Source of the DNA: Rhodococcus qingshengii
GTDB lineage: Bacteria > Actinomycetota > Actinomycetes > Mycobacteriales > Mycobacteriaceae
Length of the DNA stretch: 64,000 bases
Reading direction: 5' to 3'
Assembly: GCF_021025955.1 (NCBI RefSeq)
Contig: NZ_JAJNCL010000008.1
Span: 62,001 to 126,000 of the forward strand
Shown: positions 12,038 to 47,513 of the stretch, one piece after another
How the letters are laid out: each line of letters begins with the position of its first letter
Position numbering within the stretch: the stretch's first letter is position 1
Translations under genes and position numbers: made by a program
Notes under the pieces: model-generated
What the model saw: the letters and a program-made list of their open reading frames with translations, nothing else
What the model was told of the DNA's origin: nothing
Databases searched by the model: none

Positions 12038-13684
12038 ATGACCGTAAAGCCTGGCGCGGCCGCCACATCGGCCGCCGTGAGCACCGCCTCCTGGCTGCCA
12101 CTCATCGTGGTAGTCCTCACCCAGATTCAGGCGTCGTTCGCCGTCAATGCTCTGACCGTCTCGATGGCCGGCATCACCACCGATCTCGACACGCCCGCAA
12201 CAAGTGTCGGCACCGCAATCACCGCGGGCACCTTTGCCATGGCTGCATTCATTCTGCTGGGCGCCAAGATCGGCGCCCGTTACGGCACCCGTTTGGTCTT
12301 CCAGATTGCCGTCGCGATTCACGGTCTGGCGATGGCCGCGGTCGCTCTGAGCCAGAGCCCGGCAATGCTGTTCGTGGCGCAAGCCGCGTCCGGCGCTGTG
12401 ATCGCTCTCATCGCCCCCGCGTTGACGGTTTTCATCGCCACGAACTTCAGTGGCGATCAGCAGGCAAAGGCCATCGGTTACCTGGCAGCAGCAATCCCCG
12501 CAGCCGGTGTGCTGGCACTGCTGATCGCCGGTTCCTTTGCGACGACGATCGGGTGGCGTTACTCCTTCGCCCTCGTCGTGGCGCTCGCCGTGGTCAACCT
12601 GGTCCTGAGTTTCCGTGTCAAACCTGTTCCCCCGCAGAAGGACATCACCATCGATTGGGCCGGCGCCGCACTGGCTGCCGTTGCCGTCATCCTGCTCAGC
12701 TTCGGTTTCAGCGGCCTGAACTCGTGGGGCGTCATCCTGGCCACCGACGCTGCGCCGTTCTCGGTCATCGGTGTTTCACCCGCGGCCATCCTGATCGTCC
12801 TCGGCACCATCTGCGCGCAGGGGTTCTTCCAGTGGACGCGAAGCCGCAAGGCGCAGAACAAGCCTCAGCTCTTCAACCTCGACGTCCTCAAGACCGGCGC
12901 CGAGCGCGCCACCACGATTTGCATGGCGACGATGATGTTCGTGGGAACCGCGGCCAACTTCCTCATTCCGCTGTACATGCAGATCATCCAGGGCCGCACC
13001 AGCTTGCAGACGTCGTTCTCGATCATCCCGTACACACTCTCGATCTTCATCGCGAGCACCGTCGTCGCGCGCCTGTACAAGACGTACTCCCCGCGTCTGA
13101 TCGCACGAACCGGGTTCGTCGTTGTTGCCGCTGGACTCATCCTGTTGGCCTTCACTATTCGTGGTGACTGGCATCAGATCTTTGTTGTCATCGGCCTGAT
13201 CACCCTCGGCCTCGGGCAGGGCGCCATCGTTGCGCTGGTGTTCAACACCCTCCTCACAGCAGCCCCCAAGGAACTGGCCGGTGACGTCGGTGCCTGGCGA
13301 GGACTGGTACACAACATGTCCGGCAGCGTCGGCATCGCGGTGGCCAGCGTGTTCGCCGTCGGAATCCTCGGTACCCTCGTCAGCTCGCAGCTGATCGACA
13401 ACCCCACCATCCCGGCATCGCTCAAGGTCGAGTCAGGGATCAATCTCGACCAGGTCAACTTCGTCCCCAACGATCAACTCGTCGTGACGCTCGAAAGCAC
13501 CTCCGCGACACAAGCACAGATCGATGAAGCCATCCGGATCAACACCGAAGCGCGCCTGCGCGCACTGCGAACCTCGCTGCTCGTACTCGCCGGGCTCTCT
13601 CTGCTCGCCATCATTCCGGCCGGGCGCATGCCCAACGAAGTACCTGCTCTGGAAGAACCGCAACCCACGAAGGGCAAGAAGTAA
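12038..13684 (+). CDS. MFS transporter, DHA2 (14-helix) drug exporter type
   Basis: A 548-residue major-facilitator protein with about 14 hydrophobic segments. The loop GAKIGARYGTR fits motif A between helices 2 and 3, and the length fits the DHA2 proton-antiport multidrug family. A periplasmic segment near the C-terminus (SGINLDQVNFVPNDQ) is common in the family. A GGAAGG ribosome site precedes the ATG. It is followed after 3 bp by a DUF6325 gene and then a SHOCT gene, which appear to form one operon. The drug or metabolite exported is unknown. Confidence 0.88.
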   Translation: MTVKPGAAATSAAVSTASWLPLIVVVLTQIQASFAVNALTVSMAGITTDLDTPATSVGTAITAGTFAMAAFILLGAKIGARYGTRLVFQIAVAIHGLAMAAVALSQSPAMLFVAQAASGAVIALIAPALTVFIATNFSGDQQAKAIGYLAAAIPAAGVLALLIAGSFATTIGWRYSFALVVALAVVNLVLSFRVKPVPPQKDITIDWAGAALAAVAVILLSFGFSGLNSWGVILATDAAPFSVIGVSPAAILIVLGTICAQGFFQWTRSRKAQNKPQLFNLDVLKTGAERATTICMATMMFVGTAANFLIPLYMQIIQGRTSLQTSFSIIPYTLSIFIASTVVARLYKTYSPRLIARTGFVVVAAGLILLAFTIRGDWHQIFVVIGLITLGLGQGAIVALVFNTLLTAAPKELAGDVGAWRGLVHNMSGSVGIAVASVFAVGILGTLVSSQLIDNPTIPASLKVESGINLDQVNFVPNDQLVVTLESTSATQAQIDEAIRINTEARLRALRTSLLVLAGLSLLAIIPAGRMPNEVPALEEPQPTKGKK

Positions 13685-14407: not shown

Positions 14408-15091
14408 CTAGTTGGGTCGTCCCAAGGCAAAAGCCATGACGGGAAGCTGCGTCGTCGCGAGATTCAACAGAGATGCCACGCGCACATCCGTGAATCCTGC
14501 GACGGCGCAGCCGGCAAGTCCCAGCGCCTCGGTCACGAGGTACAGATTCTGAACCAGCACACCGGCATCCACGTGCATCGTGCGGTAGTGCCGCATCGCG
14601 TACTTCTCCAGCGGCGCTTCCACGTTCGCGACGACGAACAGAAGAACCGGAAACACCTCCGCGAACTCGGGCTGGAGAAGGCTCGCACGAAGGTGCTTTC
14701 GCACGTCGCCGAGCCGGACAACCTCGGCCCGGCCTCGGGCGTATCGGTACACCCCGGCTCCAAGCGAGTGTCCGGGTTGGCTGACAACAAACGACAGCGT
14801 CAGTTCGCGCATCCCGCCCGCCGTCGGGCTGCTGACAAGACTGTGGTACAGCACATTTGACAGTTCGTCGGCTCCCAACGCATCTGCCGCCGGGTTGTAG
14901 CGGCTCCGTCGCGCCTGCAAGACCTCCGGGAACCCGCAGGCCGGCAGTGGCGTCGGGGCCAGCAGTTCCACGGATTCACACGTAATCGGCGGCAGTGCGT
15001 CCTCGTCGAACGGGAGCTCCGACGGACTCACCGTCCGGTCCAGCGCAGCATGCAGCGATACGACGGCCTCGATCCGCGCGAGCGCGGTCAC
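14408..15091 (-). CDS. SagB/ThcOx-type nitroreductase-fold dehydrogenase
   Basis: A 227-residue FMN-dependent nitroreductase-fold protein. The region EVLQARRSRYNP, the later YHSLVSSPTAGGMRE and the C-terminal LVTEALGLAGCAVAGF match the SagB/ThcOx oxidoreductases that oxidise azolines to azoles in ribosomal peptides. The GTG at 15091 overlaps the stop of the binding-protein gene by 4 bp (GTGA), which excludes the longer open frame and makes it the fourth gene of the ABC transporter operon. The YcaO genes that would supply its substrate lie 5 kb away in the opposite orientation. It could instead act on the transported compound. The family call is firm and the substrate is inferred. Confidence 0.82.
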   Translation of the reverse strand: MTALARIEAVVSLHAALDRTVSPSELPFDEDALPPITCESVELLAPTPLPACGFPEVLQARRSRYNPAADALGADELSNVLYHSLVSSPTAGGMRELTLSFVVSQPGHSLGAGVYRYARGRAEVVRLGDVRKHLRASLLQPEFAEVFPVLLFVVANVEAPLEKYAMRHYRTMHVDAGVLVQNLYLVTEALGLAGCAVAGFTDVRVASLLNLATTQLPVMAFALGRPN

Positions 15092-16068
15092 GAACCCGGG
15101 TGCAGCAGGCGAGACACCTCGGCAGCCCCGTCGATCGAGACCAACTCGCCGGCGAACCACGCCTCCGGAACGGCAAAGATCGCATTCGACGCTGCGGCCG
15201 GGGTCCCGGCAAATGCCGTGCGCGCAGCCTCGAGCGTGGATTCCCGCGTCGACTCGGTGGAGTAGACGACGAGGAGCGCCTGTGGCGACTTCGCGAGCAC
15301 CGATTCGGTGGCTACCTGGCCGAAGTACTTTCCGTCGGGGAGATCGCTCTCGAAGAGATTGCTTCCCCCGGCGGCCTCGAGCACACTGCTGTAGAGGCCT
15401 CTCGCCAGAGCGTAGGACTGTCCCTCCGAAACCTGAACCATCACAGTGGGAACCGGCTCCCTCACGGCCGCAGATGCCTCGGTTGCAGCGAGCGACTTCT
15501 TGCCGTCTGCCAGGAGAGTTGCTGCCTCGTCACTTGTTCCCGTCAGGGTACCGAGACCTTCGATGTCGGACCAGACGTCGTCGATCCGTCCCTCGGTGAC
15601 TGCCTTGTGGCAATACCCGCTGTTCACGAAGATCGGGATGCCGAGGTCGCGCAATTCGTCCATGCTCTGCAATCGGTCACCGTCGAACCAGTACTCGCCG
15701 TCGGAGACGATCAGATCTGGGCGGGCGTCGAGCAGTGCTTCTTTCGCTGGAACTCCGGTGCTCAGTACCGGCACGGCGGCGAACTGTTGCGCGAGATCGG
15801 GGCTCGGTGGCGAGAGGTCGATATTCGACTGTCCGACAATGCGGTCGGCGGCACCGAGCTGAATGAGAAGCTCCGTCATCGACGGATACAGCGAGACTAT
15901 CCTTTCGGCCGTCTTGGGCAACGTGATGTCGCGATCACAATTGGTGACCGTGATCTTCTCGGACGAGGCCGCAGCCGAATCGGCAGTGGAGTTCCCGCAC
16001 GCGTTCAGTACGGCGGTGGCGGCCACGGCCGAGCAGAACAGCGCGGCAGTACGTATCGAGGTTTTCAA
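15088..16068 (-). CDS. Lipoprotein substrate-binding protein, FepB/BtuF type
   Basis: A 326-residue binding protein of the periplasmic-binding family used for siderophores, haem and corrinoids. The signal peptide ends in a lipobox-like LNAC around residue 25, so it should be a membrane-anchored lipoprotein. The helical-backbone family motif ERIVSLYPSMTELLIQLGA is clear. The TTG at 16068 is chosen because it overlaps the ATPase stop as TTGA, matching the coupling of the other genes in the operon. The ligand is unknown; the co-transcribed SagB-type enzyme and adjacent RiPP genes suggest a modified peptide-metal complex. A corrinoid or deazaflavin-type ligand is an alternative. Confidence 0.88.
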   Translation of the reverse strand: MKTSIRTAALFCSAVAATAVLNACGNSTADSAAASSEKITVTNCDRDITLPKTAERIVSLYPSMTELLIQLGAADRIVGQSNIDLSPPSPDLAQQFAAVPVLSTGVPAKEALLDARPDLIVSDGEYWFDGDRLQSMDELRDLGIPIFVNSGYCHKAVTEGRIDDVWSDIEGLGTLTGTSDEAATLLADGKKSLAATEASAAVREPVPTVMVQVSEGQSYALARGLYSSVLEAAGGSNLFESDLPDGKYFGQVATESVLAKSPQALLVVYSTESTRESTLEAARTAFAGTPAAASNAIFAVPEAWFAGELVSIDGAAEVSRLLHPGS

Positions 16069-16859
16069 GACACTACTTCTTTCGTAGGTAGGAGAGGAGG
16101 GGCGAACGAGAGCAAGGGGCGCCCGGTCAACGGATGAGTGCCGAGATGCACCTGAACCCCGAAGACTTCGGACAGCAGATCCTCGGTCAGGACCTCGCCG
16201 GTGGGTCCCGATGCGAGAACTGCACCCTCTGAAAGCAGGCACACGTAGTCGCAATATGCGGCGGCCAGCGCAAGTTCATGGATCGCAACCACCGTCGTGG
16301 TGCCGAGTTCAGTGACCAGTTCCATCAATTCGAGCTGAGCACGGATGTCGAGGTGGTTGGTGGGCTCGTCCAGGACCAACACCGACGGCTGCTGGGCGAT
16401 CGCCCTGGCCAACATCACACGCTGCTTCTCACCGCCCGACAATTCGGCGAAGAGTCGTGATCCAAAGCCCTGCATGCCGGTTCGTGCCAGCGCTGCGCTG
16501 ACGATGTCCCGGTCGATCTCACCGAGTCGAGAAAATGCGCTGTGATGCGGCGTCCGACCCGTTGCAACAACCTCGCGGACACTGAAAGAGAAATCGGATG
16601 AATGCTCTTGCCCCACAACACCGATGATGCGTGCTGCCGATCGTGGCGAGAGATCGCCCCACACGTTCACCTCGTCCACCTTCACGATTCCGCTTTGCGG
16701 CTTCATCGAGCGGTACAACGCGCGCAGGAGGGAGGACTTTCCACTGCCGTTCGGTCCGACGAGCCCGACCACACTTCCCTCCGGCGCTTCCAGGTCTACA
16801 CCCGAAACCACCAGGCGTCCGCCCCGAACGACGTGAATTCCGCTGGCCGACAATCTCAT
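16065..16859 (-). CDS. FecE/BtuD-type ABC transporter ATPase
   Basis: A 264-residue ATPase with Walker A GPNGSGKSS, signature LSGGEKQR, Walker B VLVLDEPTNHLD and the switch histidine in AIHELALA, characteristic of the FecCDE/BtuCD importer family. The ATG at 16859 overlaps the permease stop by 4 bp; a much longer open frame upstream only shadows the permease. It energises uptake through the adjacent permease and binding protein. Confidence 0.93.
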   Translation of the reverse strand: MRLSASGIHVVRGGRLVVSGVDLEAPEGSVVGLVGPNGSGKSSLLRALYRSMKPQSGIVKVDEVNVWGDLSPRSAARIIGVVGQEHSSDFSFSVREVVATGRTPHHSAFSRLGEIDRDIVSAALARTGMQGFGSRLFAELSGGEKQRVMLARAIAQQPSVLVLDEPTNHLDIRAQLELMELVTELGTTTVVAIHELALAAAYCDYVCLLSEGAVLASGPTGEVLTEDLLSEVFGVQVHLGTHPLTGRPLLSFAPPLLPTKEVVS

Positions 16860-17923
16860 GACTGCGCACCGCCGTCCCGTCGTAGCAACCAGAGGAAAAA
16901 CGGGGCGCCCAATCCGGCGGTGATGATCCCGAGTGGTAATTCGTTGGGCGCATCCAACATTCGAGCCGCAAGATCGACGATCACCAGGAAGGTGGCTCCA
17001 ACCAGCGCGGTCGTGGGGAGCAGCTTGCCGTGATCGGATCCGACCAGGAGTCGTACGGCATGCGGCACGAGCAATCCCACGAAACCGATTCCGCCGGCAA
17101 CGGATACAACAACCGCGGTCAACAACGACGCAATCACCAGTAGTAGCAACCTGGTCCGACGCACGTCGACGCCTACCGATTGTGCGCTCTCGTCTCCCAT
17201 AGCCAGCGCGTTGAGTTGGCGCGATTGCGTCAACAGCACCGCAGCACACATGGTGATCACCGCGGCGGGCACACCAAGATCCGACCAACTTGCCCCGCTT
17301 ACCGAGCCCAGCAACCAGAAGAGCACTCCCGAAAGCTGGCTCGGATCGGCGCGCAACTGGACAAAACTTGTTGCAGCCGAGAGCAGATAGCCGATGGCAA
17401 CTCCCGCCAGGACCATGCGCAGCGGGACAAGCATTCCCTCTCGCCTTCCCAGGACGAGAACCGCGATCAGGGAGACCATGGCTCCCAGGAACGCTGCCAC
17501 GGGGACGCCGATCGACAGACCGGTTCCGATGCCGGTCGTCATGATCAGTACTGCGCCGAAGGATGCTCCGGAACCCACGCCCAGAATGTATGGATCGGCA
17601 ATCGGGTTGCGCACCAACGCTTGCAGCACGGCGCCGGCCAACGACAACCCGGCGCCCGCCAATGCCGCAATCAGAATGCGCGGTACCCGCAATCCCCACA
17701 CGATCCGATCGAGCAGCGGGTCGACCAGCGGACCGCCGACGTGCGCGTACAACACCGCGAATACATCGGCAAAGGACACCGACGCGGCACCCGACCACAC
17801 CGCGACGGTGGAGACCGCGGCAAGCACAACCGCCGTGGCCAACAGAAACGGGACGTACCCGCGCTCGCCGACGGGATGCGCGCGCGACGGCACTCGTGGT
17901 GCTGCCTCGCTGGTCAGCGTCAT
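16856..17923 (-). CDS. FecCD-type ABC importer permease
   Basis: A 355-residue integral membrane permease with about 10 hydrophobic helices and family motifs RVPRILIAALAGAGLSLAG and NPIADPYILGVGSGASFGA. It forms a dimer that carries the ligand handed over by the binding protein. An AGGAG site lies just upstream of the ATG at 17923. It is the first gene of the four-gene operon permease-ATPase-binding protein-SagB. A Zur-box-like sequence lies about 52 bp upstream of its start. Confidence 0.93.
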   Translation of the reverse strand: MTLTSEAAPRVPSRAHPVGERGYVPFLLATAVVLAAVSTVAVWSGAASVSFADVFAVLYAHVGGPLVDPLLDRIVWGLRVPRILIAALAGAGLSLAGAVLQALVRNPIADPYILGVGSGASFGAVLIMTTGIGTGLSIGVPVAAFLGAMVSLIAVLVLGRREGMLVPLRMVLAGVAIGYLLSAATSFVQLRADPSQLSGVLFWLLGSVSGASWSDLGVPAAVITMCAAVLLTQSRQLNALAMGDESAQSVGVDVRRTRLLLLVIASLLTAVVVSVAGGIGFVGLLVPHAVRLLVGSDHGKLLPTTALVGATFLVIVDLAARMLDAPNELPLGIITAGLGAPFFLWLLRRDGGAQS

Positions 17924-17974
17924 CGCACTCCTGAGTAGGTGGGGTTCGCAGTCATGAACAGGTGGATCTAACCA

Positions 17975-17995
17975 TAACGACAGTCGTTTTCATTA
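17975..17995 (-). promoter_or_regulatory. Zur-box-like operator before the ABC/SagB operon
   Basis: On the minus strand the site begins TAATGAAAACGAC and ends GTCGTTA, with a perfect core AACGAC-A-GTCGTT. As I remember the actinobacterial Zur consensus (TGAAAATGATTTTCA with TAA/TTA flanks), 17 of 21 positions agree. It shares 14 of 21 positions with the second box at 19325-19345. It sits in the only intergenic space upstream of the permease gene, a position suited to repression under zinc sufficiency. Confidence 0.55.
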
Positions 17996-18007
17996 ATAGT
18001 CACATGC

Positions 18008-19267
18008 TCATCTGTGCGGGTAAGGGTCGGTCCGCAGCGCACTCGCCCACGCGAAGAGCGCCCCGACCAGCGCAGAGATGCACGCAACGAGGTAGGCGGT
18101 GCCGATGTCCCAGCGTCCTGCGATTACCCCCGCAAGCAACGCGCCGACCGGCGAACCACCCCAGGCGACCATCCTCGCCGTAGTGTTCACCCGGCCCTGA
18201 AGACGATCCGGAGTCAGACGCTGACGTGCACCGATGCCGTTGAGGATGGTGACGGTCGCACAGCCGGAGTAGACAGCGAGTGCCGTGATCGCGGCGCCGG
18301 TGTTGCCGGTTGTCGCAACGACGAACAGCACCACCGGGGCGATGGTCAGCGCACCGATCGTGATCGCCCCCACCGGCCACCGCGCCGGCAGCCGTGGAAG
18401 CACGAGAGCGCCGACCACTCCACCCACGGAGACCGCCGTCCACACGGCGCCGATCATCGGACTCGACGTCGAAATCCCCAGCCTCTCGGACGCGTACACC
18501 ACGAGGAGAGCCGTAACTGCACCCTGCGTCAGCGAATTGACGAAGCCGACGCCGGTCAAGGCTCTCAGAAGCGGCGACTGCCAAAGGAAGCTGAGGCCTT
18601 CGCGTATGTCACGCGCAATTCCGGGTTCCGACCGCTGCGCCGCTGCAGGGGCAACCGAGAACGAGGCTCCGATCGACGCCATGGCCAGTCCGGCCACTAC
18701 GTACGCCAGCGCATCAGCGCCTAATGCGTAGGCCGGGCCGATCGAGGCCACAAGCACGCCGGCTATCGCCGGAAAGACAACATCGATCAGCGTGCTGGAC
18801 GTCCACAGCGCACTGTTGGCGGCCGGTATCCTCTGCCGACCGACCAGAGCAGACAGCGCTCCGAAAGCAGCGCCGTCGAACCACACGAAACACGTTCCGA
18901 TGCACATCGATACGCCGACGGCATGCCACGCCGTCAGTACGCCTAGCGCCTGCGCTGCCGGAATACTCGCCAAAGCAAGTGCAGCAACGGCCTGCGCAGA
19001 CAGGATGACCGTCCGCCGGTTGACTCGGTCTGCCACGGCGCCGGCAAACAAGCCGAACACGAGGTACGGCAGTACCGTCCCCGCAGCCGCGAGCGAGGTG
19101 AGAAACGGAGACCGACTGATGTCGAACACCAGGATCGGCATGGCCACTCCGGTGACCGCCGCACCGGCTACGGCAATCGTACGAGCCGTGAAGAACAATC
19201 GAAACGATCTGTCCCGAAAGACATGTGGTTGCGCTTCGACGGATCCCGTCGTCGGGGTCTCGCTCAT
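18008..19267 (-). CDS. MFS transporter, EntS-like exporter
   Basis: A 419-residue major-facilitator protein with about 12 hydrophobic helices. The N-terminal FRDRSFRLFFTARTIAVAG and the loop GAVADRVNRRTVI fit the MFS_3/EntS group, which includes siderophore exporters. The ATG at 19267 is preceded by a GAGAG site. It ends about 85 bp before the permease gene on the same strand and is divergent from the precursor peptide gene, with a strong palindrome between them. It is the natural candidate for exporting the mature product of the RiPP genes. Confidence 0.85.
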   Translation of the reverse strand: MSETPTTGSVEAQPHVFRDRSFRLFFTARTIAVAGAAVTGVAMPILVFDISRSPFLTSLAAAGTVLPYLVFGLFAGAVADRVNRRTVILSAQAVAALALASIPAAQALGVLTAWHAVGVSMCIGTCFVWFDGAAFGALSALVGRQRIPAANSALWTSSTLIDVVFPAIAGVLVASIGPAYALGADALAYVVAGLAMASIGASFSVAPAAAQRSEPGIARDIREGLSFLWQSPLLRALTGVGFVNSLTQGAVTALLVVYASERLGISTSSPMIGAVWTAVSVGGVVGALVLPRLPARWPVGAITIGALTIAPVVLFVVATTGNTGAAITALAVYSGCATVTILNGIGARQRLTPDRLQGRVNTTARMVAWGGSPVGALLAGVIAGRWDIGTAYLVACISALVGALFAWASALRTDPYPHR

Positions 19268-19288
19268 GTATGCACTCTCTTGTACCTG

Positions 19289-19317
19289 TTGCTCTCCGTC
19301 GCGATCTTTCGTACGGT
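19289..19317 (+). promoter_or_regulatory. Candidate promoter of the precursor peptide gene
   Basis: A TTGCTC element at 19289-19294 is followed after 17 bases by TACGGT at 19312-19317. Transcription would begin near 19323-19325, at the left edge of the 25-bp palindrome, so a protein bound there would block initiation or early elongation. The elements match sigma-70 consensus only moderately. Confidence 0.35.
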
Positions 19318-19322
19318 GGCAT

Positions 19323-19347
19323 CGTAATGGAAATGGTTTCCATTACG
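19323..19347. promoter_or_regulatory. Perfect 25-bp palindrome, Zur-box-like, at the divergent promoter
   Basis: Perfect 11-base arms CGTAATGGAAA and TTTCCATTACG surround TGG. The inner part TGGAAATGGTTTCCA differs from the remembered Zur core TGAAAATGATTTTCA at three positions, and the TAA/TTA flanks agree. It ends 12 bp before the precursor ATG and 56 bp upstream of the MFS start, so it can control both genes. A strong Fur-superfamily operator is the best reading; zinc specificity is inferred. Confidence 0.65.
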
Positions 19348-19359
19348 GAAGGGATGACA

Positions 19360-19548
19360 ATGAGCAACATTTCGTTCGACAGCGTCTCCAACTCGGCTCC
19401 GGCCAATGCACTCCAGGGCGTCGGCACCAACGCTCTCGTCGACAACCCGTTCACCTTCGAGCCGGTTGCCGAGGCAACGTCCGCACACGCTCTGCAGGGT
19501 GTGGGCACCAACGCCCTCGTCGACAACCCGTTCAGCTTCCAGAGCTGA
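19360..19548 (+). CDS. Putative RiPP precursor peptide with duplicated motif
   Basis: A 62-residue peptide starting MSNISFDSVSNSAPAN. It carries two copies of ALQGVGTNALVDNPF followed by TF or SF (residues 17-33 and 44-60), separated by EPVAEATSAH and ending QS. It contains no cysteine, so heterocycles, if any, would come from Ser/Thr. The ATG at 19360 has GGAAGGG at 6 bases; an ATG at 19354 is too close to that site. Codons differ silently between the two repeats, so the protein sequence is what is conserved. Its position directly before an E1-like leader-binding protein and two YcaO genes makes it the likely substrate. Which part is leader and which is core cannot be told. Confidence 0.8.
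   Translation: MSNISFDSVSNSAPANALQGVGTNALVDNPFTFEPVAEATSAHALQGVGTNALVDNPFSFQS
19408..19539 (+). repeat. Two 51-bp direct repeats within the precursor gene
   Basis: Units 19408-19458 and 19489-19539, period 81 bp, encode 17-residue repeats identical except Thr/Ser at position 16. The nucleotide differences that I see between the units are otherwise silent (for example CTC/CTG, GGC/GGT, GTC/GTG, GCT/GCC). This indicates an old duplication kept by selection on the peptide. Confidence 0.85.
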
Positions 19549-19599
19549 AACCTTTCCTGATCCAGACTGTTTCGACAGCCTGATCTGCCGATGACCCCG

Positions 19600-19625
19600 C
19601 CCGCATCCGACTCGTCGGGTGCGGG
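19600..19625 (+). terminator. Hairpin between precursor and biosynthetic genes
   Basis: CCCGCA-T-CCGA pairs with TCGG-G-TGCGGG around a CTCG loop, giving an 11-bp stem with one G-U pair. No U-run follows, and the AAGGAG site of the next gene starts 8 bases later. It could be a partial terminator or RNA stabiliser that keeps precursor message in excess over enzyme message, as in many RiPP operons. Confidence 0.5.
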
Positions 19626-19642
19626 CACCGACAAGGAGATCC

Positions 19643-20455
19643 GTGTACGCCCTCGCCGACGGACACCAGCTGTATCCCACACCGGACGGTATCTGGCACT
19701 ACCTGACACCGGACGAGAACGCAGTCACGATCGGTGCTCCTGCCGAAGATCTCGCAGAACTCGACAACTTCCTCCGGCGGTCGAGTTCGCTGCTCGGTGC
19801 CGGAGCGAGCGAGATCGCCGACGCTCTCGTCGCTCGCGGCGTGCTGGCTGTTCCAGGTCGAGCGCCGGAGATTCCGGGTCCACAGCGTGTGCTGATGGAC
19901 GGCATCGGACCCGTAGTCGATGCCTGCATCGCTCTGCTCTCCAAGGCTCTTCCGGATCTCGAAGTCGTATCCACCACTGCGCCTGACGAAAACGACGTGG
20001 CATCTTCAGACCTCGTATTCTCGGTGGCCGATGCTCCTCCTCATGACGAGTGGTCGGAACTCGATACCTGGTGCCGCCGAAACCGAACACCGTGGCAACG
20101 CGTCCACGCGGAGCTGGGTGAGATCTGCATCGGGCCCTTCTTCGACGGTATCGACAGCGCAAGCTACCGGGACGTCTGCGGTCGACGGCTTGCCGCGTCG
20201 CGTGTGCCGGATCATCTGCAGGCGCTGTGGAATCACCTCGCCGGCAGCGAACCTCGCCCGCTTGAACTTTCACCCACCGCAGCCGCAATGGCCAGTGCGC
20301 TCGCATGTTCGGACGTCGTGGCTGGTACCCGTGGCGCACCGCCATCACACCTTCATCACCAGATCCGGATGAATCCGCGAACCCTCATGATGACTCGCCA
20401 TCCCGTGCTACCTCTGCCAGGCGGCGTTCTCGAACCTTCGCCGACGCTCCGGTGA
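19643..20455 (+). CDS. E1-like TOMM leader-peptide-binding protein
   Basis: A 270-residue protein. Residues 1-75 (HQLYPTPDGIWHYLTPDE onward) look like a winged-helix RiPP recognition element. Residues 85-250 resemble the inactive E1/ThiF-like domain of cyclodehydratase C proteins, and the end RMNPRTLMMTRHPVLPLPG is typical of the family. The segment IGPFFDGIDSASYRDVCGRRL matches the usual zinc-binding strand, but only Cys179 remains of the normal C-x2-C. The GTG at 19643 is chosen for the AAGGAG at 19633-19638. It should bind the precursor and present it to the YcaO proteins. The downstream CocE gene overlaps it by 4 bp. Confidence 0.78.
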   Translation: MYALADGHQLYPTPDGIWHYLTPDENAVTIGAPAEDLAELDNFLRRSSSLLGAGASEIADALVARGVLAVPGRAPEIPGPQRVLMDGIGPVVDACIALLSKALPDLEVVSTTAPDENDVASSDLVFSVADAPPHDEWSELDTWCRRNRTPWQRVHAELGEICIGPFFDGIDSASYRDVCGRRLAASRVPDHLQALWNHLAGSEPRPLELSPTAAAMASALACSDVVAGTRGAPPSHLHHQIRMNPRTLMMTRHPVLPLPGGVLEPSPTLR

Positions 20456-21882
20456 TCTCACTCGGAGTGACGATCCCAGCGGCAGACGGATCCTCGCTGG
20501 CTACGGATGTTCTTCTCCCACCAGAGTCTTCACCTCGAGGTCTGATCGTGATCCGCACCCCATACGGGCGCGGGTGGCATCTGGCCGAGGGAATCGAATG
20601 GCGATCGCGAGGAATTGCATTCATCTGTCAGGACGTACGTGGACGGCACGATTCCGCCGGTTCTTGGGAACCGTACGTTCACGAGCGCGAGGACGCCGCC
20701 GCCCTCGCCGAGTGGCTGCAGGATCAGCCGTGGACCCCGAACTGCGTCATCGCCAGCGGGGCTTCATACGCGGCTGGAACTGCCTGGGCGTTTACTGCCG
20801 AGACCAACAGCGCCGATCGGCCCTTTCACGTTGGCGGCGTCGTCTCCAAAGTGCCGACCATCGGAAGCGATCGCGTCAAACGTGATCCCTCGGGGATACT
20901 TCTCCTCGCCGAGCATCTGGCGTGGTGGGGCGAGCACGGAGATTCGGCTTCGTCCCGTGAAGGTTTCATCCCTGCCCTGATGCGTTCGAATTCGTCTTTG
21001 CTGGAACATCTCCCGGTGCAGTCGATGATCGAGAAAGTCGGCCTGACTTGCGATTCACCAGGTTGGGTGACGCCGATCAGCCGGGCTCGTGAACGCGAAC
21101 TGTACGGCAGCGACGATCTCGTCTCCGCAGACGAATTGTCCGAGCTCGACGTCGCCGGACTGCACATCGGAGGCTGGGACGATGCGATGATTCGGGAGAC
21201 GCTACGACACTTCGCATCCGTGGGGCGCGGGCCACAAAGTTTGATCGTGGGCCCCTGGGCGCATGACCTCCGCCCTGGAATGGTCGGCGAGACAAGTTTC
21301 GGCGGCCTTCAGGTCGAGTGGATGGAATCGATATTCTCGGCGCGGCCCCTGACTGTCAATCGGGTGTTCGACCGGGGTGTGGGCGAATGGTCGACCGAGC
21401 CGTATGTCACGGGTGCGAATCGCGTTCGTCTGGAACCAGACCTGGCGCGCGAACCGTACAGTTTCTGGTACGACGCGGCAGACAACCGAAACGACTGTGT
21501 TGTCTCGACTTTCGACATGCAGCTCGAGTGTGTGCTGTCCGGAACACCTTCGGTGGAGCTGAACGTGCACTCGCCCGAGGGCGAAGCCGATTGGATCGTC
21601 GAGCTGAGCGTCGTCGATACCGCTGGAGTCACCAGGTCGATCGCACGCGGCGCTGGCGTCAGCCTTCGATCCGGCACGCAGACCATCGATCTCGATCCTG
21701 TGCTCCACACCGTGCGCCCCGGTGACGTTCTGTCATTGCGGATCTCGGGTGCGGACTTCCCACGGCTCGCACGCAATCTCGGAGACGGCGATCGCTATCG
21801 AGGAACACGCAGTATCGCACTGCACCAATCATTTTCCGGGTCGCTGACCCTGCCGATGCTCGGAGGAACCGACGATGAATGA
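20452..21882 (+). CDS. CocE/NonD-type alpha/beta hydrolase in the RiPP operon
   Basis: A 476-residue S15/CocE-like hydrolase. The nucleophile motif is GASYAA with Ser105. Candidate acids are Asp243/Asp244 in GGWDD, and His271 lies in GPWAH. A C-terminal jelly-roll domain follows from about residue 330. Relatives cleave X-Pro peptides, cocaine esters or acylated antibiotics. The GTG at 20452 overlaps the preceding stop as GTGA. In this setting it could cut the modified precursor, for instance near NPF, or open a heterocycle or ester; an unrelated self-resistance role is also possible. It overlaps the first YcaO gene by 8 bp. Confidence 0.82.
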   Translation: MISLGVTIPAADGSSLATDVLLPPESSPRGLIVIRTPYGRGWHLAEGIEWRSRGIAFICQDVRGRHDSAGSWEPYVHEREDAAALAEWLQDQPWTPNCVIASGASYAAGTAWAFTAETNSADRPFHVGGVVSKVPTIGSDRVKRDPSGILLLAEHLAWWGEHGDSASSREGFIPALMRSNSSLLEHLPVQSMIEKVGLTCDSPGWVTPISRARERELYGSDDLVSADELSELDVAGLHIGGWDDAMIRETLRHFASVGRGPQSLIVGPWAHDLRPGMVGETSFGGLQVEWMESIFSARPLTVNRVFDRGVGEWSTEPYVTGANRVRLEPDLAREPYSFWYDAADNRNDCVVSTFDMQLECVLSGTPSVELNVHSPEGEADWIVELSVVDTAGVTRSIARGAGVSLRSGTQTIDLDPVLHTVRPGDVLSLRISGADFPRLARNLGDGDRYRGTRSIALHQSFSGSLTLPMLGGTDDE

Positions 21883-23215
21883 CGTGCTCGTCGACGCCCG
21901 GAGCGGCGTACTGACCTCACTGGAACCACACATTCGCTCGGACATGCCGACAGGCTGGGTCGGGTGGGCCGCGAAGGTGGCCGACACCCGCAACTTCGGC
22001 GGGAGTGGTTCGCGGTTTCGCGCCGACCCCTACGGATTCGGGGCTTCGATACGCGACGATGCCGCGGCACGCGGGGCGGCAACCGGTGAGGCCGCCGAAA
22101 GATACTGCGGCAACGTGGTCCCCGAAGATCTGGTCCACAGCAGTGCATCAGCGCTGGCACTGGCCGGCTCATGGGTCGTCGATCCGGCGAGTTTCGCGCT
22201 GTACAGCGAGGACCAGTACCGCCTTCCCGGATTCCCCTTCGTCCCCTTCACCTCTGCTCTGGATGTCCGCTGGGCACTGGGTCACACTATGGACGAGGGA
22301 GTGCCCACCTATGTGCCGGCCGCCCTGACCTATCTCGGGTACTACACGGGCACCCGTCGCCACGAACCACCGATCGCGTCGTTGCAGTACGCCGGAATCG
22401 CTGCTGGGCGCTCACGCGCCGAAGCCGAGATGTCAGCTCTGCTGGAACTTCTCGAACGCGATGCCACCGCACTGTGGTGGTGCGGAGACCGGTCACAGCC
22501 GGCAATCGAACTTTCCGACTGGGAGCGGTTGCCCGCGCACCGCCACCTCGGGGACCTGGAGAGCGAGACCCGGGGCGTTCGAGTGCTGCTGCTTCCTTCC
22601 CCCTTCGGCATTCCCGTCGCCGCAGTGTGGATCCGGGATGACCGACGTGGATTGGTCGCCCTGGGCACCGCTTGTCGACCAACGGTGGAAGCGGCCGTGT
22701 CGAAGGCTCTTGTCGAGGCGTACGCGGTACTGGCCATCACCATCGACCTCGCCGACCCCGACGGGCCGACCTGGCGCAGCGTGGCTGACGGAACGCTGCC
22801 GGCGCACCTGTACAAACCCTTTCGGGCCGACCGTCGTTACCGAGACGAGTTCGATCCGCAATGGAAGGACGTCGTCGATCTGCCGACCGTCGCCCAACTC
22901 TATCTCGACCCCGTGATGGCTCGCGCGGCGGAAGAGCATCTTTTCGACTACACCGAAACACGTTCGGTATCAGAGATTCCCGATGAAGCGCCGTTGAATC
23001 TGGATTCTCTCGTAGCGCTTCTGACGTCTCGAGGGCACCAGCCGATTTCCGTCGATCTCACCACCCGCGACATCTCGATTGCCGGGTTGCACGTCGTCCG
23101 TGTCCTGACACCCGGTCTGTTCAACAATGCCCCGGCAGCTTTTCCTCTCCTTGGAGGTAGCAGATTGACCAGCGCATCGACCACCCATCTGCATCTGCCG
23201 GTTCCTCTCGCATGA
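21875..23215 (+). CDS. YcaO domain protein 1
   Basis: A 446-residue YcaO protein. GEAAERYCG (residues 71-79) and AEMSALLELLERDA (about 184-197) are the ATP/magnesium-binding glutamate motifs of the family. The C-terminal HVVRVLTPGLFNNAPAAFPLLGG segment also fits. YcaO enzymes phosphorylate backbone amides to form azolines, thioamides or amidines. The protein ends HLPVPLA, close to but not the full PxPxP tail of azoline-forming members. The ATG at 21875 lies inside the end of the CocE gene, and its stop overlaps the second YcaO gene by 4 bp. Confidence 0.88.
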   Translation: MNDVLVDARSGVLTSLEPHIRSDMPTGWVGWAAKVADTRNFGGSGSRFRADPYGFGASIRDDAAARGAATGEAAERYCGNVVPEDLVHSSASALALAGSWVVDPASFALYSEDQYRLPGFPFVPFTSALDVRWALGHTMDEGVPTYVPAALTYLGYYTGTRRHEPPIASLQYAGIAAGRSRAEAEMSALLELLERDATALWWCGDRSQPAIELSDWERLPAHRHLGDLESETRGVRVLLLPSPFGIPVAAVWIRDDRRGLVALGTACRPTVEAAVSKALVEAYAVLAITIDLADPDGPTWRSVADGTLPAHLYKPFRADRRYRDEFDPQWKDVVDLPTVAQLYLDPVMARAAEEHLFDYTETRSVSEIPDEAPLNLDSLVALLTSRGHQPISVDLTTRDISIAGLHVVRVLTPGLFNNAPAAFPLLGGSRLTSASTTHLHLPVPLA

Positions 23216-24504
23216 GGTCTTTGCTCGTCGACCGCCGAACTGGGATCATTCGAGAGTTGGTCGACGCCGTTGTTCCCCAGCACTTTCCGCCGGAGTTCAA
23301 GCTGATTCACTCGTATGCCAGCGATTCAACTCGCTTTTCACCCTGGTCCAGTGACTCGGCAGGTGCCGGATACTGCTTCGATCTCGGTGACCGTGCGCGG
23401 CCCACCGCGGCTGCAATAGGCGAAGCGGTGGAACGATATTGCGGCAACATCGTCGCCAAACCGATCGTCCGAGGGTTGGGCAGAGCGTTGATCGGAACGA
23501 GCATCGACCTGTCTCAACTCGCACGTTTCGACGCCGCCCAGTACGCGCGGCCACAGTTCCCGTTTGTCGAACCTACCGAGAATCTCGAGATCGACTGGAC
23601 TCGCGGAGTCGACCTGATCGCGGGTTCCGATATCTGGGTACCGGCCGAACTCGTCTGGGGTTCGTATCCTCACTATGTCGCCCGGACCGGGCCCGTGATC
23701 TCGCCAGTGGCTCAGGCGGGTCTCGCCGCCGGGCCCACGACGGAATTCGCGATACGGAATGCATTGCGCGAGATAGTCGAGCGCGACGCGATGACGCTGT
23801 CCTGGACCGGGCGGCGTGGTGTTCGGATTGTCACCGGCGTTCCCGAGGCGTTGCTTCGACTGGGCGATCACGAAACCCTGTCGACCAGATGGCTGGCATT
23901 CGAGAGTGATTTCGGCATCCCGGTACTTGGCGCCCTCGTCCTCGACCACCGCACCGGATACTCGACCATGGGAACGGCCTGCCACGAGGACGCGCAGACC
24001 GCTGCGTTCAAGTCGCTCGGGGAAGCGCTTCAGCTGCAACTTCTTTCCGCCGATTACGACGACCCGGAGAGCGGCATCGGTCGAGCCGCATCATCCCCGA
24101 CGAGCCCGCTTGCGCCGTGGCGAGCCGACCGACGCTACGCGGACGTCTACCGATCGGACTTTGCCGACGTCATGGATTACGGGTGCCATTTGCAGCTCCA
24201 CCTGGACCCGGAGATCCAAACACGGTTCGACAGCGAGTTGGCCGATGCCGTCGTCGGCGAGGTGCAACTGGACTCTCTGACGTCACACGCGGACACCGAA
24301 AGCGTACTGACTACAGCTGGTTTCAGGCCGGCATGGGTCGATCTCACCACAACTGATGTTCTCCGCGCCGGCCTGCATGTCGTCCGCGTCGTCGTTCCCG
24401 GTTGTCTCACCAATGCGGCCGCCGGATTACCGTTCCTCGGCTCGTCCCGACTAGTCGACAGTCTTGCCGGACGCGCTGCTCGCACCATCCCATTGCCGCA
24501 CTGA
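23212..24504 (+). CDS. YcaO domain protein 2
   Basis: A 430-residue second YcaO protein, similar along its length to the first. GEAVERYCGN (residues 70-79) and ALREIVERDAMTLSW (about 184-198) supply the nucleotide-binding glutamates, and HVVRVVVPGCLTNAAAGLPFLGSSRL matches the first copy's C-terminus. It ends ARTIPLPH. Tandem YcaO genes could give a hetero-oligomer or two reactions on different residues. It is the last gene of the right arm and its final 54 bp overlap the end of the convergent dehydrogenase-like gene. Confidence 0.88.
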   Translation: MRSLLVDRRTGIIRELVDAVVPQHFPPEFKLIHSYASDSTRFSPWSSDSAGAGYCFDLGDRARPTAAAIGEAVERYCGNIVAKPIVRGLGRALIGTSIDLSQLARFDAAQYARPQFPFVEPTENLEIDWTRGVDLIAGSDIWVPAELVWGSYPHYVARTGPVISPVAQAGLAAGPTTEFAIRNALREIVERDAMTLSWTGRRGVRIVTGVPEALLRLGDHETLSTRWLAFESDFGIPVLGALVLDHRTGYSTMGTACHEDAQTAAFKSLGEALQLQLLSADYDDPESGIGRAASSPTSPLAPWRADRRYADVYRSDFADVMDYGCHLQLHLDPEIQTRFDSELADAVVGEVQLDSLTSHADTESVLTTAGFRPAWVDLTTTDVLRAGLHVVRVVVPGCLTNAAAGLPFLGSSRLVDSLAGRAARTIPLPH

Positions 24505-46616: not shown

Positions 46617-47513
46617 ATGAAGCGCTACGACCTCCGCAGTCGCACGGATCGACTCGATCCCGAAACCGATTACGAAGAGATGTCGCGCATTCTCGCGGCG
46701 CAGGAGTTTCCCTGGGACATCAATCAAGCGCTCAGCTTCGCGCTGTTTCGTACGTACGCAGTCCCCTCCATCGGCAAGCTCCTTTTCTCCACGGGCGAGT
46801 TCACCGACAAGGTTCAGAAACGCTACGACGACACCAGCCTGATCCTCGACGCCATCCTCGAGCACGGCCTCAGCAGCACCGAAGGCCGCAAGAGCGTCCG
46901 TCGAATGAATCAGATGCACGGCTCGTACGACATCTCCAACGACGACATGCTCTACGTCCTGGCCACCTTCGTCGTCACGCCGGTCAGATGGCTCGACGAG
47001 TACGGCTGGCGAAAAATGACCGAGAACGAGATCGTCGGGTCGACGAACTATTACCGCCACTTGGGCAGGTACATGAACATCAAAGACACTCCTGACACCT
47101 ACGCAGGATTCGTCAAACTTCTCGACGACTATGAGCGCGAACACTTTTCATTCGATCCCGGCGCCCGGGCCGTCGCTGATTCCACCCTCGACCTGATGTG
47201 CACCTTCCCGCCCAACAACCTGGCGCCGAAGGCTCTGGTCAAGGGATTCGCGTTCGCCCTCATGGACGATCACCTACTCGACGCCTTCCACTACAAGCAC
47301 CCGAGCACTGCGATGCGCGTCGTCTCACGCGGTGCGCTGAAGGTCCGTGCGCGTCTGCTGCGCTTCTTCCCGGTACGCACGAAGCGGAAATTCGCCCGCG
47401 AGCTGCCCAACATCCGCAGCTACCCGACCGGATACAAGGTCGAAGACCTCGGCACCTTCCCCGCCGGATGTCCGGTCAAGCACCTCCAGGCAGACCAGCA
47501 GGCCAAAGCGTAA
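46617..47513 (+). CDS. MpaB-type oxygenase family protein (DUF2236)
   Basis: A 298-residue protein of the MpaB/latex-clearing oxygenase family. The regions YDDTSLILDAILEHGLSS, RRMNQMHGSYDISNDDMLYVLATF and the helical remainder match the all-helical haem-binding fold, with candidate ligand histidines in that central region. The ATG at 46617 (MKRYDLRS) follows GGGAGTG. Members oxidise isoprenoid or other lipid substrates; its substrate is unknown. Confidence 0.85.
   Translation: MKRYDLRSRTDRLDPETDYEEMSRILAAQEFPWDINQALSFALFRTYAVPSIGKLLFSTGEFTDKVQKRYDDTSLILDAILEHGLSSTEGRKSVRRMNQMHGSYDISNDDMLYVLATFVVTPVRWLDEYGWRKMTENEIVGSTNYYRHLGRYMNIKDTPDTYAGFVKLLDDYEREHFSFDPGARAVADSTLDLMCTFPPNNLAPKALVKGFAFALMDDHLLDAFHYKHPSTAMRVVSRGALKVRARLLRFFPVRTKRKFARELPNIRSYPTGYKVEDLGTFPAGCPVKHLQADQQAKA

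Follow-up and report, generated by a model that had tools for sequence, protein, structure and literature searches.

Zur-type boxes at a motif-B streptamidine-family RiPP cluster of Rhodococcus qingshengii, a candidate ribosomal zincophore locus

The stretch of DNA analyzed here (hereafter the window) comprises 64,000 nucleotides of Rhodococcus qingshengii (assembly GCF_021025955.1, contig NZ_JAJNCL010000008.1, positions 62,001 to 126,000), from a host genome of 6.48 Mb. Between positions 14408 and 24504 it carries a gene cluster for a ribosomally synthesized and post-translationally modified peptide (RiPP), arranged as two divergent arms. A first-pass annotation, made from the sequence of the window, had placed a precursor, an E1-like protein, a CocE-type hydrolase, and two YcaO proteins on one strand, and a FecCD permease, an ATPase, a binding lipoprotein, and a SagB-type dehydrogenase on the other, with an EntS-like exporter between the arms; all of these genes are present on the strands it gave, and family models match their products.

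The forward arm opens with a small precursor gene (19360-19548), whose product matches NF040715, the model of streptamidine-related (AmiA-related) precursors with an ALV-containing motif, at 105 bits against a cut-off of 45, and carries two motif-B repeats, ALQGVGTNALVDNPF, with NALV.NPF present twice. The gene is very probably real, because comparison with two Rhodococcus relatives gave 7 and 3 synonymous changes and not a single amino acid change; the identical peptide was recovered from Rhodococcus sp. P-2 and R. erythropolis NBRC 15567 in a profile scan of named genomes with a two-row precursor alignment, a scan that matched no further genomes. It is followed by the gene for an E1-like, leader-binding protein (AmiB-like; 19619-20455, although GTG at 19643 may be an alternative start), a CocE/S15-type hydrolase gene (AmiC-like, with a proposed role in leader removal; 20305-21882; TIGR00976, 148.3 bits, cut-off 66.3), and two YcaO genes, YcaO 1 (21875-23215; PF02624, 177.5 bits) and YcaO 2 (23212-24504; PF02624, 159.8 bits), both above the cut-off of TIGR03604 (TOMM_cyclo_SagD). 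The nearest solved proteins to YcaO 1 by sequence are MusD, TruD, and LynD.

On the reverse strand lie the genes of an EntS-like exporter of the major facilitator superfamily (MFS; 18008-19267; MFS_3, 109.7 bits), a FecCD permease (16859-17923; PF01032, 318.8 bits), the ATPase of the importer, which belongs to the ATP-binding cassette (ABC) class (about 16065-16862; ABC_tran, 108.4 bits), a substrate-binding lipoprotein with the lipobox LNAC (15091 to about 16065, the start being a prediction; Peripla_BP_2, 82.1 bits), and a SagB-type flavin dehydrogenase with an AmiE-like role (14408-15160; TIGR03605, 87.9 bits, cut-off 78.4), whose true start is probably the GTG at 15094, which overlaps the upstream stop by 4 bp. 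Overlaps of 4 bp were read between the FecCD and ATPase genes (ATGA), the binding-protein and SagB genes (GTGA), and the two YcaO genes (ATGA); the junction of the ATPase and binding-protein genes showed no clear overlap on reading. The labels E1-like and EntS-like hold as resemblances: both models match, with scores under their cut-offs (TIGR03882, 27.8 bits against 36.9; EntS, 106 bits against 324), and the MFS protein, with an EntS score far under the cut-off, can be called no more than "EntS-like". Among the matches listed, the importer ATPase exceeded the cut-off of no model for F420-0, corrinoid, or siderophore ATPases, and the solved chains nearest to the binding lipoprotein in a sequence search were the periplasmic binding proteins 4mlz/4n01, the hydroxamate-transport component 5cr9, and BtuF; closest-structure searches by sequence yielded general relatives. 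Comparison with Rhodococcus sp. P-2 or R. erythropolis NBRC 15567 yielded at least one pair of nonsynonymous (dN) and synonymous (dS) substitution rates for each of the ten genes except YcaO 2, whose alignments were gapped, and dN was well below dS in every pair obtained.

Judged by its genes and the NF040715 match, the cluster belongs to the streptamidine (ami) family of YcaO RiPPs, as a member with motif B and two YcaO genes, and this gene set, with which the first-pass annotation knew of no ribosomal zincophore, was already in the literature (Russell et al., 2021; PMC8442711). The main text of that paper, to which our statements about it refer, reports 237 streptamidine-related precursors in eight orders, with a major subset of clusters that contain FecBCDE-like genes (amiF1-F4), AmiB, the AmiC hydrolase, a YcaO protein, a dehydrogenase, and two ABC transporters, and a subset from Frankia, Rhodococcus, and Clavibacter in which two YcaO proteins are present and the motif is usually B. 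Streptamidine itself derives from the residues HLSATH and carries an amidine ring, AmiB is predicted to be TruD-like with weak similarity, and motif B has no heterocycle-forming residue in the equivalent region (PMC8442711). The Rhodococcus cluster shares with this family the precursor type and ALV motif, YcaO, AmiB-, AmiC-, and AmiE-like genes, and a FecBCDE-like importer; it differs from the Streptomyces model cluster in its precursor, which has two motif-B repeats and lacks an HLSATH core, in having two YcaO genes and one permease gene, and in an MFS gene that takes the place of two ABC exporters. The authors already suspected metal import, and the type of cluster and the idea of a metallophore both predate the present analysis (PMC8442711).

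What we add concerns regulation. Sites were scored against the published actinobacterial Zur box, taaTGaNAANNNTTNtCANta (PMC5472717), with 2 points for each upper-case and 1 for each lower-case consensus letter and a maximum of 23; thresholds on this score were chosen after a first look at the regional sites, and the consensus derives from znuA genes, so that matches at znuA are partly expected. In the divergent promoter region, a box at 19323-19347 (21-bp core 19325-19345) scores 21/23 and forms a perfect 11-bp inverted repeat, CGTAATGGAAA/TTTCCATTACG, around a 3-bp spacer, and its core is identical in both Rhodococcus relatives. A second box, TAACGACAGTCGTTTTCATTA (17975-17995), scores 19/23 and lies some 50 bp ahead of the permease gene. 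These are the top two matches in the window, the next being a site of 18 at 47133, and they place 21-bp Zur boxes in promoter position as in members of a Zur regulon; no sigma-70-like promoter was found around them. A scan of the whole genome with a pattern built from the window box and a known Zur box, allowing at most three mismatches, returned four sites, two of them in the cluster, and none with the reversed pattern as control. The third precedes a gene for a CobW/COG0523 GTPase (best model ZigA, 499.8 bits, cut-off 600) and the fourth a ZnuA lipoprotein gene (PF01297, 195.7 bits). Another site pattern gave one extra site, inside a gene (L007), which we took as chance, its reversed control having given two. 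The genome has nine FecCD matches above cut-off and one weak one, and only the FecCD gene of the cluster adjoins a box of the four-site set.

No zur gene was seen within the cluster. The genome encodes three FUR proteins, one of which follows an ArsR gene on another contig and precedes open reading frames (ORFs) of which one is UppS-like by eye. This order of ArsR and FUR genes is that of smtB-zur in mycobacteria, and the ArsR-linked protein is the candidate Zur, a name that rests on the gene order.

Relatives of the cluster were sought in genomes of the class and the order (L and G numbers are our handles for regions and genomes). The motif-A model NF040714 matched in 18 of 394 class genomes, above cut-off in 17; among 397 genomes of the order, NF040715 matched in two, the host genome and G012. 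Relatives of the window YcaO 1 occur in 35 of the 394 class genomes, the host included; of the 18 with an NF040714 match, all but G703 and G741 (16 genomes) have one with an E value of 1e-40 or better. We fetched 36 regions, 34 from the YcaO 1 list plus those of G012 and G741, with G703 not among them; the regions are not independent, since several come from the same genus. The 34 that we call ami regions leave out L105 (G741), which has no YcaO match, and L090 (G636), which has a YcaO match, no FecCD gene, and no motif precursor. A FecCD gene is present in 34 of the 35 fetched regions with a YcaO match, a figure that counts L090, since 34/34 would be circular; the co-occurrence of the two arms in related genomes, which the first pass had put forward as a prediction, is thus borne out. 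The full set of the window (FecCD, ATPase, binding protein, MFS, E1-like, CocE, and two YcaO genes) recurs in eight regions (L071, L073, L075, L089, L093, L095, L097, and L104), and four of the 34 (L074, L076, L079, and L091) have no recognized precursor. SagB, searched with the window protein as query, which more distant AmiE-type dehydrogenases would escape, turned up in 4/34 ami regions, adjacent to the ABC genes in L077 and L078 and to YcaO 2 in L073 and L095, and the idea of a conserved ABC-SagB operon as a fixed unit was rejected on this count. The 3.5-Mb genome G473 has three ami precursor copies (L029 on C1; L035 and L037/L072 on C5), one region of which was fetched, and one copy lies near a contig end without a Zur-type box. 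In G741 (L031/L105), the 20 kb fetched contain a precursor-like match with an inner TAG, matches to FecCD and the ATPase, and a Zur-type box scoring 19, and no YcaO match.

Zur-type boxes accompany most of these clusters. The best site scores at least 19/23 in 29 of the 34 ami regions (29/35 with L090) and in 0 of 20 unrelated YcaO regions, where the best site is 18 and the GC content is similar (0.721, with 0.726 in the ami regions); sites in this test counted anywhere in 20 kb, in a promoter or not, and the 20 controls were hand-picked among the listed matches, with 14 taken from genomes in which ami regions occur as well. Across 37 regions (L070-L104, including L090, plus L038 and L039) there are 63 sites of at least 18, as against 0.8 expected from dinucleotide shuffles. 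Of the 23 precursors identified purely by their motif, 21 have a site scoring 17 or more within a 300-bp window by the start; with nine ORFs picked by eye (L073, L085, L088, L093, L094, L095, L099, L101, and L102) the count becomes 28/32 for a 340-bp window, although these ORFs came from stretches around boxes or before the E1-like gene, which favors the finding of boxes, so that 21/23 is the unbiased count. The tested window was set from the precursor stop codon and can take in the ORF start; random windows reach 17 in 3.2% of cases at the same loci and 0.4% at control loci. A count of the exact 15-mer TGANAANNNTTNTCA in nine ami genomes gave 22 occurrences, between 0 and 6 in each, with 5 at ami clusters and 17 elsewhere. 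Eleven of these 17 flank genes that are mostly known members of Zur regulons: six are at ZnuA genes, two of these six sharing a single gene, and the others are at a ZnuB/C pair, at type B L31 together with L28, at type B L31, at AztD, and at a FUR gene. The remaining six comprise one before CbiM, one before the gene of an SBP_bac_5 protein, and four without a gene assignment. The Zur-like control suggested in the first pass is thus real at the level of sequence, with boxes before both arms of the window and in most sampled relatives.

Some further candidate precursors stand near such boxes. Small ORFs with VHSSNHAT and a V.WR end lie before the E1-like gene of four ami-like regions (L094, 13553-13648, reverse; L101, 12985-13080, reverse; L099, 6710-6805, forward; L102, about 12817-12909, reverse), with Zur-type boxes upstream (at about 360 bp in L099); they may represent a hitherto undescribed type of precursor, with two His, and the one in L094, the only one of the four scanned, had no NCBIfam match. 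A further candidate in L088 (13206-13325, reverse), with AHPTCNHALV and hence both Cys and His, lies just downstream of a box scoring 20 and likewise had no NCBIfam match, and a His-rich one in L085 (11745-11858, reverse), with NSNHHSHSTVG, lies just downstream of a box scoring 18. In regions of family f32, strong Zur-type boxes are found kilobases upstream of the precursor, in L097 at 15104, 15656, and 16805, in L089 at 16773 and 18543, and in L075 at 16072.

Zur-type control across the family is strongly supported by these sequence comparisons, and together with the co-occurring arms it fits an exported and re-imported metallophore. We think, with moderate confidence, that the cluster is a Zur-controlled, motif-B streptamidine-family RiPP cluster that makes a ribosomal zincophore, and its genes include both dedicated exit and entry routes, the MFS gene and the FecCD, ATPase, and binding-protein genes, with substrates that are predicted. 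When zinc is replete, Zur-Zn would sit on the boxes at 19325-19345 and 17975-17995 and keep the precursor, enzymes, exporter, and importer off; in zinc starvation, it would leave both boxes and the two arms would come on together. By analogy with published deletions in the Streptomyces ami cluster, the precursor would then be bound by the E1-like protein, cyclized by the YcaO pair, and cut or trimmed by the CocE-type hydrolase with removal of the leader; the MFS protein would export the peptide, which would bind zinc and return, zinc-loaded, through the binding lipoprotein and the FecCD transporter.

Several observations weigh against a zincophore. The main counter-evidence comes from streptamidine, which bound no metal in a chrome azurol S assay or in liquid chromatography-mass spectrometry (LC-MS) with seven ions including zinc, and from an amiD mutant, which had no phenotype in metal starvation, as reported in the main text of PMC8442711. 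One could argue that these negatives reflect how the tests were run, with no trigger known, LC-MS in acid, and ZnuABC as a redundant route, or that the molecule tested was a fragment. Streptamidine was also made, by both the wild type and a heterologous host, in fermentation media that may or may not have been low in zinc (PMC8442711, main text). The weakest point is the motif-B repeat, which has no His or Cys and thus no obvious zinc ligands; the motif-A cores that were read keep two His (HLSATH, HLSASH, HASATH, HDSASH, and THSAGH). On the side of regulation, four of the 32 precursors (L072, L073, L089, with a site of 16, and L099) lack a site of 17 or more within the window tested, while L099 has a site of 21 about 360 bp before its ORF and L073 a site of 17 before its FecCD gene; the best site is only 17 in two and 18, equal to the best control, in three of the 34 ami regions; and G433 has no exact 15-mer site. 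The candidate Zur reaches the cut-off of no NCBIfam model, and its scores favor the Fur models over the one for Zur. Finally, Zur control is by itself no proof of zinc carriage.

The regulatory evidence would fit equally well a peptide that Zur controls and that is not a zincophore, for example, a signal, an antimetabolite, or an enzyme inhibitor deployed in zinc starvation, with an importer that recovers the peptide or gives self-protection. A product of this kind would account for the failure of streptamidine to bind metal (PMC8442711, main text) and for a motif-B repeat without obvious zinc ligands, but streptamidine showed no antibacterial or antifungal activity in the tests published there. 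The importer also speaks for a different cargo, as a FecCD-type system is present in 34/35 YcaO regions. Importers of this type usually transport metal complexes or B12-like compounds, and we consider a non-zincophore unlikely, if a serious contender. A metallophore for cobalt, nickel, or copper that is switched on by zinc shortage is a still less probable reading. It could draw on a binding protein that resembles BtuF as well as siderophore receptors and on the Zur-type box that stands before a CbiM-type cobalt uptake gene in the ami genome G473 (L109, C1:2170238); the exact boxes outside ami clusters flank zinc-uptake, L31/L28, aztD, or fur genes in 11 of 17 cases, however, and none of the seven ions offered to streptamidine was bound (PMC8442711, main text).

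If the boxes belonged to another FUR-family regulator, of iron or peroxide, the peptide would be tied to iron; none of the three FUR proteins of the genome is named Zur above cut-off, and Fur models give the candidate Zur its higher scores. The sites themselves match the published actinobacterial Zur consensus, and the same class of site flanks znuA, znuB/C, type B L31, L28, and aztD genes, which makes this reading extremely improbable. We rejected an iron siderophore on the same ground, that the boxes agree with the Zur consensus and accompany zinc genes, no scan for iron-regulator (IdeR/DmdR) boxes having been made. The combination of YcaO, E1-like, and SagB proteins is an azole-forming set, and the presence of all three genes here might be taken to mean a classical azole-forming RiPP antibiotic cluster that lies by chance beside an unrelated iron-siderophore importer. 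Chance proximity is hard to reconcile with importer and biosynthesis genes that stay together in most sampled relatives and with Zur-type boxes before both arms in the window, and azole formation with a repeat that has no Cys and one Thr, where a thiazole/oxazole-modified microcin (TOMM) would have a core rich in Cys, Ser, and Thr. The single solved product of the family, moreover, has an amidine and no azole. We therefore rejected the azole antibiotic, to which we give very little credence, and the azole-type product expected in the first pass is unlikely.

The zincophore that we favor would have partial parallels in several known systems. Bottromycin and klebsazolicin likewise contain amidine rings made by YcaO proteins, of which bottromycin also has two; they are antibiotics with other precursors, and we know of no Zur-controlled FecCD importer in their clusters. 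Methanobactins are ribosomal peptides that carry a metal and have their own export and import genes, but they bind copper, use other enzymes and Cys-based ligands, and are not known to involve a YcaO protein. Coelibactin and [S,S]-ethylenediamine-disuccinate ([S,S]-EDDS) are not ribosomal peptides, whereas the scaffold here is encoded by a gene. They share with the present cluster a link between Zur sites and metallophore biosynthesis genes, in Streptomyces coelicolor and Amycolatopsis japonicum, respectively (PMC5472717, PMC12161575). The words "Zur" and "promoter" do not occur in the main text of the streptamidine paper (PMC8442711), and a literature search, with most subscription journals outside it, found no publication that links Zur to the streptamidine family or ties its peptides to zinc starvation; the Zur link appears to be the new part.

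Whether the same reading extends to the streptamidine family as a whole, across many actinobacterial families and diverse cores, seems to us evenly balanced. If it does, these peptides would be Zur-repressed zincophores and the first RiPPs to carry zinc, the missing function of the family would be zinc acquisition, and it would have been missed earlier because the tests were blind to a zinc-starvation trigger or because the molecule tested was part of a larger active one. The 2021 paper left this family of more than 230 clusters with no function assigned (PMC8442711), and Zur-type boxes by most of its sampled members say when the peptide is probably made and how its production might be switched on. 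Such conserved switches of a zinc-starvation type suggest that the peptide helps these bacteria to obtain zinc, and if the peptides do carry zinc, actinobacteria of soil and elsewhere would have ribosomal zincophores, with a sequence that is legible in the genome.

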